From positions 62,001 through 126,000 of the forward strand of contig JAJRSA010000028.1 of NCBI GenBank assembly GCA_024279035.1: DNA of 64,000 bases, given 5' to 3'. The translations under genes and the position numbers were made by a program. Positions 5,246 through 34,251 of the stretch are shown here, in pieces (position 1 is the stretch's first letter; the number at the start of each line of letters is the position of its first letter). The DNA is from Alphaproteobacteria bacterium. GTDB taxonomy: Bacteria > Pseudomonadota > Alphaproteobacteria > Micavibrionales > Micavibrionaceae. The notes beneath the pieces were generated by a model. That model was not told where the DNA came from, did not search any database, and saw only the letters and a list, made by a program, of their open reading frames with translations.

Positions 5246-5460
5246 AACCACCAAGGCACAAAGTCACCAAGGTTTTTATTCTTTTCTTATCTGTGTTCAT
5301 CCGTGGTGAATTATTTTTTTACCACGGATGAACACAGATTAACACGGATGTTAAGGGGAGCTTTATTACTTACGTTCACTTTAAACTCTTTTTGTTTTTA
5401 ACTCCTGTCATTCAATATTTTTTTCTTATCCGTGTTTATCTGTGTTCATCCGTGGTGAAA
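5246..5460. repeat. Repeat block in the atpG-atpD spacer, including a 19-base perfect palindrome
   Basis: The block starts with an AACCACCAAGGCAC-type half site (5246-5272). A perfect hairpin follows, with arms atctgtgttcatccgtggt at 5289-5307 and its exact complement at 5321-5339 around a 13-base loop. The same 19-mer occurs again at 5438-5456, next to the GxxExxY stop codon. A degenerate direct copy lies at the other end of that gene (5825-5856). No coding capacity is supported in this block. Confidence 0.9.
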
Positions 5461-5468
5461 TTTCTTTT

Positions 5469-5861
5469 TCAAAGAACCACTCTTTTCCATTCCAGTTTTG
5501 AGTGTTTAAAATTCAAGATTATCCCAAGCGTTAAGCCACTGGCACGCAAATAATTTAAAACCTGCCCTTTTTCATTGTTACCAATGATCTCTATGGTTTT
5601 TAGCTCAACAATCACTTTATTTTCAACCACGAAATCAGGAATAAATGTTCCAACATTTTCCCCTTCAAACATAATCGGAAATGGGTGTTGTTGAGAAAAC
5701 TGTATGTTTTTATTCTTAAAGGCGACAGCCAATGCATTCTCATATATTTTTTCATTAAACCCATGACCAACCCCATTCAACACATCCATCGCACATCCAT
5801 TAACCTTAAATGTAAGCTCATCTAATCCGTGTGTATCCATGTTCATTTGTGGTAAAGCCAT
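5469..5861 (-). CDS. GxxExxY-family protein (PD-(D/E)XK nuclease fold), copy 1
   Basis: A 130-residue protein with the family signature at Gly34, Glu37 and Tyr40 (GFNEKIYENAL). A nuclease-like core follows, with Asp76, Glu86 and Lys88 in a D-x9-E-x-K pattern (DFVVENKVIVELK). The biochemical role of this widespread family is not established; the fold suggests nucleic-acid cleavage. It lies in the same direction between atpG and atpD, so it is cotranscribed with an essential operon. Its first residues (MNMDTHGLDE) are encoded by a degenerate copy of the repeat that also borders its stop codon. This means the gene and the repeats form one unit. It shares the family motifs with copy 2 but is otherwise divergent. 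Confidence 0.85.
   Translation of the reverse strand: MALPQMNMDTHGLDELTFKVNGCAMDVLNGVGHGFNEKIYENALAVAFKNKNIQFSQQHPFPIMFEGENVGTFIPDFVVENKVIVELKTIEIIGNNEKGQVLNYLRASGLTLGIILNFKHSKLEWKRVVL
5825..5856. repeat. Degenerate repeat at the 5' end of GxxExxY gene 1
   Basis: This stretch matches the copy at 5428-5460 in the same orientation with a handful of mismatches. Together they form direct repeats flanking the GxxExxY gene. It overlaps the coding start. Confidence 0.7.
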
Positions 5862-6756: not shown

Positions 6757-6781
6757 TTTTTATAACCATTTTTACTTTTTT

Positions 6782-6934
6782 AACCACGAAGACACCAAGT
6801 CACGAAGTTATTTTAATGAAGCTAACCTCTTTTTTTGTATAAATCCTACTCTCTCTTCTTTCTGAAAAACTAAATGTACTAACCATAAAACACCTCTCTC
6901 TATACTTTCGTGTCTTTGTGACTTCGTGATCCAC
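6782..6934. repeat. Inverted AACCACGAAGACAC-type repeats upstream of atpG
   Basis: The arm aaccacgaagacaccaagt at 6782-6800 (continuing to 6807) and a near-complement at 6905-6934 (tttcgtgtctttgtgacttc) form an imperfect inverted repeat about 100 bases apart. The second arm ends just before the stop codon of GxxExxY gene 2 and is repeated in direct orientation at 7344-7371, beyond the start of that gene. Confidence 0.85.
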
Positions 6935-6937
6935 ACT

Positions 6938-7339
6938 TTATAATACCAACCTTTGAATTCCATCTTTTATCAAAGGAACATTAAAATTCATCAAAAATCC
7001 CAACTGAACGTCTGTGAGATGCATATAAGATAATAGTTGAGCTTTATGAATGGGCAATAATCGTTCAACCGCCTTTAATTCAATAATAATTTTATCTTCT
7101 ATAATGAGATCAATACGATGCTCTAATTTCAATTTATGGTTTTTGTAAACAAGCGGTATCCTTTTTTGTTTTTCAAAATGAAGACCTCGATCTTGTAATT
7201 CAAAAGCAAAGCATTCCTCATAAACACTTTCTAAAAGCCCCGCTCTCATGGTCGTATGTACCTGAAAAGCACAATCAACCACTTGCTTAGCAAGAACTTC
7301 TATTTCTGCATCTAAATTTGTTACAACTTTTAAACTCAT
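6938..7339 (-). CDS. GxxExxY-family protein (PD-(D/E)XK nuclease fold), copy 2
   Basis: A 133-residue protein with the signature at Gly34, Glu37 and Tyr40 (GLLESVYEECF) and a nuclease-like D77-x9-E87-x-K89 core. It lies between atpA and atpG in the operon direction. Outside the motifs it is clearly different from copy 1, so the two are not a recent duplication. It is bracketed by direct copies of a CGTGTCTTTGTGACTTCG-type repeat instead of the ATCTGTGTTCATCC type found at copy 1. Function is unproven. It is either an independent insertion tolerated in the operon or a mobile accessory unit. Confidence 0.85.
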   Translation of the reverse strand: MSLKVVTNLDAEIEVLAKQVVDCAFQVHTTMRAGLLESVYEECFAFELQDRGLHFEKQKRIPLVYKNHKLKLEHRIDLIIEDKIIIELKAVERLLPIHKAQLLSYMHLTDVQLGFLMNFNVPLIKDGIQRLVL

Positions 7340-7343
7340 TATA

Positions 7344-7371
7344 TTCTTCGTGCCTTTGTGTCTTCGTGGTT
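7344..7371. repeat. Repeat at the 5' side of GxxExxY gene 2
   Basis: A direct copy of the repeat at 6905-6930 (cttcgtgcctttgtgtcttc core). It lies between the GxxExxY start codon and the atpA stop codon and completes the direct-repeat flanks of the gene. Confidence 0.8.
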
Positions 7372-7379
7372 CAACATCA

Positions 7380-34170: not shown

Positions 34171-34251
34171 ACCACAGATAAACACGGATATGCACTGATA
34201 TTTATTCATCAAGAAGACTCTTATCCGCGTTCATCCGTGTTTATCTGTGGT
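34171..34251. repeat. ACCACAGATAAACAC-type perfect palindrome without a gene
   Basis: The arms accacagataaacacggat (34171-34189) and atccgtgtttatctgtggt (34233-34251) are perfect 19-base complements around 43 bases. The sequence belongs to the same family as the palindrome beside GxxExxY gene 1 (5289-5339), but here it is gene-free. Confidence 0.85.

Follow-up and report, generated by a model that had tools for sequence, protein, structure and literature searches.

Genes of the GxxExxY family are common in bacterial and archaeal genomes, where they are annotated as "hypothetical" and often lie within housekeeping operons. In the window analyzed here (the whole 64,000-nucleotide stretch of DNA), two such genes are found in an atp operon, with the minus-strand order atpA, gene 2, atpG, gene 1, atpD, all in the same direction, and both are accompanied by short repeats. 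The question raised by this locus is whether each gene and its repeats form one unit and, if so, what moves it. An earlier note on this DNA proposed that gene 1 and its repeats are a single transposable or homing unit; the unit is supported here by pairs of terminal inverted repeats (TIRs), by the match of repeat type to protein clade, and by gene-less (solo) copies, whereas homing is not, given the many unrelated junctions occupied. The features of the window are as follows.

5469 to 5861, minus strand: GxxExxY gene 1, 130 aa, predicted PD-(D/E)XK protein of the CRCNNAT-type clade, in the atpG/atpD spacer and co-directional with the operon.
5825 to 5856, minus strand: left TIR of element 1, overlapping the gene 1 start and encoding MNMDTHG; CRCNNAT triple-unit match at C34:67825-67851.
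5428 to 5460, minus strand: direct copy of the element 1 left TIR, immediately 3' of the gene 1 stop, also serving as left arm in a solo-like palindrome 144 bp long.
5317 to 5349, plus strand: right TIR of element 1, inverted partner to 5825-5856 and to 5428-5460.
5289 to 5310, plus strand: extra repeat copy, forming the hairpin 5289-5339 together with 5318-5339.
5248 to 5271, plus strand: one half of a solo, a lone triple unit of CACNNAG type with the sequence CCACCAAGGCACAAAGTCACCAAG (C34:67248-67271).
6938 to 7339, minus strand: GxxExxY gene 2, 133 aa, CACNNAG-type clade, in the atpA/atpG spacer and co-directional with the operon.
7346 to 7374, minus strand: left TIR of element 2 (AACCACGAAGACACAAAGGCACGAAG), stopping 6 nt before the annotated gene 2 start codon.
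6900 to 6932, minus strand: direct copy of the element 2 left TIR, 3' of the gene 2 stop.
6779 to 6807, plus strand: right TIR of element 2, 90% complementary to the left TIR.
34171 to 34251, no strand assigned: gene-less MITE-like palindrome with CRCNNAT-type TIRs, of the same repeat family as element 1.

Both window proteins belong to the GxxExxY family, with TIGR04256 scores of 130.5 bits for gene 1 (which also matches PF13366, PDDEXK_3, at 123.6 bits) and 144.2 bits for gene 2 (Pfam family PDDEXK_3) against a cut-off of 35, and with an invariant G34 E37 Y40 motif. The 19-mer ATCTGTGTTCATCCGTGGT, previously noticed beside the gene 1 stop and in the hairpin 5289-5339, is present at 5289-5307 (+), 5321-5339 (-), and 5438-5456 (+), far above chance (6 matches with at most 3 mismatches in the window vs 0.01 expected), and has 6 exact copies across the 1.82 Mb genome; the arms of the hairpin (5289-5310 and 5318-5339) are 95% complementary. 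The degenerate direct copy said to cover the gene 1 start is also there, reading ACCACAAATGAACATGGATACACACGGAT in gene sense, and gene 1 begins inside it. Among the N-terminal residues MNMDTHGLDE that had been ascribed to the repeat, MNMDTHG (in gene sense ATGAACATGGATACACACGGAT) is repeat-encoded and LDE lies just beyond. The repeats do bracket gene 1, as claimed, but the stop-side copy and the start copy point the same way, and the inverted partner is 5317-5349, which is 94% complementary to the stop-side copy across a gap of 78 nt and pairs with the start copy at score 20. Gene 2 follows the plan of gene 1 with a different unit: AACCACGAAGACACAAAGGCACGAAG, gene, direct copy, CTTCGTGACTTGGTGTCTTCGTGGTT. 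A third GxxExxY gene of this genome (G000:C35:3310-3660, L357) has long, irregular TIRs, CACCACAGTGAACACAGGGGAAGCACAGGGGCG, at score 34. In Micavibrionaceae relatives, apart from GxxExxY elements, the atpA/atpG and atpG/atpD spacers often contain 250-1000 bp of unrelated DNA, some with small ORFs (L041, L043, L055).

GxxExxY loci were pooled from genomes related to that of the window, 84,980 scanned species genomes, extra copies in 15 of the latter, plasmid records, and Bacteroidaceae; the species-genome scan contributed its best 80 loci by likeness to the query profile, and some pooled loci are orthologous. For each locus, the 260 nt before the domain were compared with the reverse complement of the 260 nt after the stop, and a score of 18 or more was taken as a match. 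With the species-scan part limited to those best 80 loci, a TIR pair was detected in 115 of 153 non-redundant loci from many phyla and Archaea, against control rates of 4.1% with ends swapped between genomes and 8.1% with ends swapped between elements within one genome, and in within-genome comparisons an element's own ends scored above swapped ones 46 times out of 48. The check suggested in the earlier note, how often a gene lies between two repeat copies, is answered by the 75% of genes across the family that are inside their own TIR pair, and the insertion-sequence trait of terminal inverted repeats around a gene is met; no pair was detectable in about 25% of the 153 loci at this threshold. 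The TIRs start with AACC or ACC, followed by a unit, CRCNNAT(NNA) or CACNNAG, that is repeated in tandem about three times at 8-10 bp spacing; the unit is specific to each element and common to its two ends (CAGAG, CGAAG, CTAAG, CAGAT, CGAAT, and others), and the outer boundary is TTTAA|CCRC at both sides. No direct-repeat excess indicative of target-site duplication was found at the element ends (84 loci, with no strain-level empty site among them). The treatment of TIR-gene-TIR together with the solos as one unit is well supported.

The type of unit was compared with a maximum-likelihood tree of the GxxExxY proteins, the contrast being read across one split. Of the 42 CRCNNAT elements, 38 fall on one side of this split, as does 1 of the 51 CACNNAG elements; support for the exact split is low (56), but a somewhat less inclusive clade, with an SH-aLRT of 95, gives the same contrast on the same data. 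In the five genomes with both TIR types, the TIR agrees with the clade of its own protein in 11/11 elements. As far as can be judged from sequences, unit type follows the protein clade and not the host; host is not the explanation, because the clade members come from many phyla and Archaea and the mixed-type genomes sort without exception. Across 57 related genomes, a GxxExxY gene is found in 17 of 24 with the repeats and in 2 of 33 without (Fisher p=3e-7), so that the independent distribution of repeats and genes that would have refuted the unit is not seen.

Solo copies point in the same direction. The window genome (G000) has 25 CRCNNAT triple-unit matches, most of them as solo palindromes, and about 12 gene-less copies; the characteristic shape consists of ~29-bp arms around 16-146 nt (L310, L313, L314, L316, L319, and window 34171-34251). 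L324 and L326 in genome G003 are solos built on the rare CTAAG unit, and their TIRs are near-identical to the TIRs of the resident CTAAG gene element L327, meeting the MITE trait of gene-less TIR pairs with a gene-bearing partner in the same genome. Across 14 genomes, 67 of 124 solo matches share the unit of a resident gene vs 24.8 expected (permutation p=4e-4), and the remaining 57 do not; the REPIN trait, inverted-doublet repeats of a type tied to an enzyme gene, is met as well. Genome G012 has 16 CRCNNAT triple-unit matches and solo palindromes (L334-L337) with no GxxExxY gene detected, which leaves either loss of the gene or mobilization by other means. A duplicate pair of solos (L311/L320, 95-97% identical) begins at one TIR and extends beyond the other, and was dropped as clean evidence of mobility since the copy passes the second TIR. 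Other palindromic repeat families (CGTCATCCTGAACTTG..., GTCATTCC...) occur in or beside solos (L317, L318, L328, L329, L342, L349) as nested intergenic repeats.

Between distant hosts, element homology stops at the TIRs: an archaeal element of Methanosarcinales (L080) and one of Brocadiaceae (L085) are 76% identical in DNA from TIR to TIR, as are those of NC10 (L081) and Acetobacteraceae (L084) at 71%, and in both pairs the neighbors are non-homologous. Both empty and filled sites, the comparison that the earlier note called for, exist among relatives, although no exact strain-level pair was found among the compared genomes. The atp spacers of a congener measure 13 and 15 bp vs 623 and 640 bp in the window genome; many Bacteroidaceae genomes have an empty junction of 1-32 bp 3' of radA, which is 473-521 bp long where filled; and Sphingomonas parapaucimobilis has a GxxExxY element in the fabD/fabG spacer, where the match in a relative is ~460 bp shorter. 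The filled radA junctions, nine of those found, carry several TIR types and are scattered on the radA tree, implying at least 4 changes; differing TIRs at orthologous junctions may also reflect turnover in place instead of new insertion. In other Bacteroidaceae (L233, L234, L237, L239, L246), the radA junction holds a different insert of ~695 bp with the ORF CVDCGTQNCKFK.... Copy number is usually one per TIR type per genome; no near-identical gene-bearing copies at two sites of one genome were present among the loci compared, and neither a movement event nor an excised form was seen in the sequences compared. GxxExxY had no match in phages and none in an IMG/VR scan, and at this sensitivity nothing indicates that phages carry the gene. 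The loci L192, L199, and L200 lie on PLSDB "plasmids" of Bacteroides, Parabacteroides, and Phocaeicola, which bear radA along with other housekeeping genes and look like mislabeled chromosome fragments.

The explanation that we favor, and regard as fairly probable, is that a GxxExxY gene and its flanking inverted repeats constitute a miniature mobile element, with the nuclease driving the movement of both the element and the solos. Such an element would comprise one gene and its repeats, about 450-600 bp in all; its single Cas4/RecB-like nuclease would most likely recognize the tandem units of its own TIRs, cut at or near the element ends, and mobilize its own element along with gene-less, MITE-like solos with the same TIRs, host repair finishing the move. 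Survivors would mostly lie between the genes of conserved operons and be oriented with transcription, where the read-through RNA is expected to pair both TIRs and, with the start codon in or beside the stem, nuclease expression should stay low. TIR binding, DNA cutting, movement, and control by the RNA stem are all inferred; transposition itself has not been demonstrated, nor has the nuclease as its agent, and the nuclease as mover is the most economical inference.

The operon setting bears on a different role. The orientation of the gene is that of its co-directional neighbors in 64 of 70 cases (64:6), the left TIR is fully open in the frame of the gene in 43 of 95 loci vs 37 of 190 for other frames, and the unit of CRCNNAT elements contains an ATG (cagATGaac) that can be used as the start codon, yielding N-termini such as MNTDE, MNANE, and MNMDTHG. 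The predicted read-through RNA of element 2 is closed by the TIR stem (z -2.25), which leads us to infer that the stem could limit translation, as such stems are known to do in some IS elements. Strict selection for pairing of the TIR stems is unsupported: in the close orthologues L192 and L222, the left arm has changed and the right arm has not. S23 genes (TIGR02436, four-helix bundle), known from rRNA intervening sequences (IVSs), share the plan: TIRs at a score of 15 or more were detected in 22 of 26 S23 loci (cross control 4.3%) and consist of tandem heptamers, each element having its own (GTATAGC, GCGAATG, ATCAGGT, and others; L358-L369, L372-L376, L150-L159). The 23S rRNA IVS of Coxiella has a 28-bp terminal stem and heptamers and is excised by RNase III, its origin being called unclear (PMC4990558). 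The shared plan, the Coxiella precedent, the orientation bias, and the predicted stem would all fit an RNA-level element in which RNase III excises the TIR stem from the operon mRNA so that the insert does no harm, while spread of the DNA is passive and the protein has no part as a mobility enzyme. We consider this unlikely: an RNA-only role predicts neither the covariation of TIR type and protein clade across hosts nor gene-less copies that track the resident gene, and the elements are not all between co-directional genes (19/83). The IVS traits of rRNA location and S23p are also not met by the window elements, which lie between atp genes and encode GxxExxY.

If the element moves as DNA, the protein has to be weighed as its mover. 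The AlphaFold model for gene 1 (pLDDT 94) has a PD-(D/E)XK core and two N-terminal helices; its best structural match is the Cas4 protein SSO0001 (Z 9.7), and the next ones, restriction enzymes, exonucleases (lambda exonuclease), and Hjc, are near the common-fold level. G34, E37, Y40, E41, Q58, D76, E86, K88, Q100, Y104, N117, and F118 are invariant or nearly so; the superfamily test of a restriction-endonuclease-like core with D...ExK is met, with D76, E86, and K88 conserved, and the motif order E...D...ExK...QxxxY is that of Cas4/RecB nucleases. A sequence search of the PDB yielded no relative. The nuclease fold suspected in the earlier note is borne out at the level of prediction, and GxxExxY is predicted to be a Cas4/RecB-like PD-(D/E)XK nuclease, DNA cutting being inferred from the model and motifs. 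The only domains in the window proteins are PF13366/TIGR04256, and the REP/RAYT trait of a Y1 tyrosine (HUH) transposase is not met. The lack of a classical transposase domain and the solos of genomes without a gene leave room for TIRs moved by some other host or IS enzyme, with GxxExxY as cargo. This seems decidedly improbable, however, given that the protein clade predicts TIR type both across phyla and within genomes, that gene and repeats co-occur, and that no other gene is found with them between the TIRs.

Recurrent junctions could instead suggest a homing endonuclease that cuts the empty allele at a fixed site (the 3' end of atpG, radA, or carA), with repair copying the element in. The radA|FAD gene junction recurs in several separate Bacteroidaceae lineages, and carA|carB is occupied in alpha- and gammaproteobacteria, with carA also in Verrucomicrobia, yet one protein clade occupies many unrelated junctions, survivorship, too, would lead to recurrence where conserved operons hold dozens of loci, and both the TIR/protein covariation and the solos are left unexplained, so that homing is very doubtful. 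As coincidence is expected, the recurrence at carA, radA, and atpG was not counted as evidence of targeting. The elements just after carA (mostly carA|carB; L088, L102, L087, L090, L109, L012, L026, L024, L070, L071) belong to different protein clades, and targeting vs survivorship is unresolved for them. Finally, the order TIR>gene TIR>spacer<TIR is seen at nine loci, among them those of both window genes. Of the 24 loci whose right TIR is distant, 9 have a direct TIR copy immediately behind the stop, which in most cases is closest to the TIR of its own element. The arrangement looks as if a TIR-gene had been placed beside a pre-existing solo with duplication of one TIR; in the other direction, the direct TIRs could recombine with each other, and the product would be exactly a solo. 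These loci are a minority beside the plain TIR-gene-TIR plan, and invasion of solos by the gene is barely credible.

If gene and TIRs are one mobile unit, a single account would cover many orphan genes and the widespread "CCACAGATGAACACAGAT" or "CACGAAGACACGAAG" palindromes, many annotated proteins would prove to have N-termini made of repeat DNA, and a very small nuclease whose DNA ends are element-specific would become a testable mobility enzyme; the old question of how S23-bearing rRNA IVSs moved is reopened as well. No description of the gene-repeat unit or of a role for GxxExxY was found in the literature searched (subscription papers were outside the search), and a small mobile element of GxxExxY and TIRs seems not to have been described previously. 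More tentatively, and as a possibility that we would not yet bank on, these may be a new class of autonomous mobile elements of ~500 bp, with a Cas4-like PD-(D/E)XK nuclease as sole protein and element-specific, end-matched tandem-unit TIRs, S23/IVS being a second, unrelated protein on the same chassis and tandem-unit TIRs defining a general kind of mini-element.

Among known systems, insertion sequences with their MITEs likewise have one ORF between TIRs and non-autonomous derivatives with the same TIRs, but GxxExxY elements lack a DDE or HUH transposase and a target-site duplication signal, and their TIR sequence varies between elements while both ends still match. With Cas4/RecB-like nucleases (SSO0001), the protein shares the predicted fold and motif order, but it is a stand-alone protein of 130 aa inside TIR elements, and there are no cysteines among its conserved residues, hence nothing that would indicate a Cas4-type Fe-S cluster. 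The 23S rRNA IVS with the S23p ORF is similar in size (~450 bp), in its one small ORF, ~28 bp terminal stem, and short tandem repeats, and in being collinear with transcription (PMC4990558); it differs in that the S23 four-helix fold is unrelated to the nuclease fold and that IVSs lie in rRNA with heptamers, whereas GxxExxY elements lie in mRNA operons with family-specific TIR units of 8-10 bp. In REP/RAYT systems, a genome has a single enzyme gene for each repeat type, and the repeats form inverted doublets (PMC3116915). The likeness to REPs and RAYTs drawn in the earlier note holds as one of logic, not homology, with one gene per repeat type and inverted-doublet repeats: each enzyme gene has its own repeat and lies beside its repeats, and the gene-less doublets form hairpins in intergenic DNA. 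In contrast, RAYT is a Y1 tyrosine (HUH) transposase and GxxExxY a protein of predicted PD-(D/E)XK nuclease fold; the GxxExxY gene is inside the repeat pair, with its start sometimes repeat-encoded; and the units are tandem 8-10-mers that differ from element to element. By analogy, the best reading is that the element would work like REPIN/RAYT with an unrelated enzyme.
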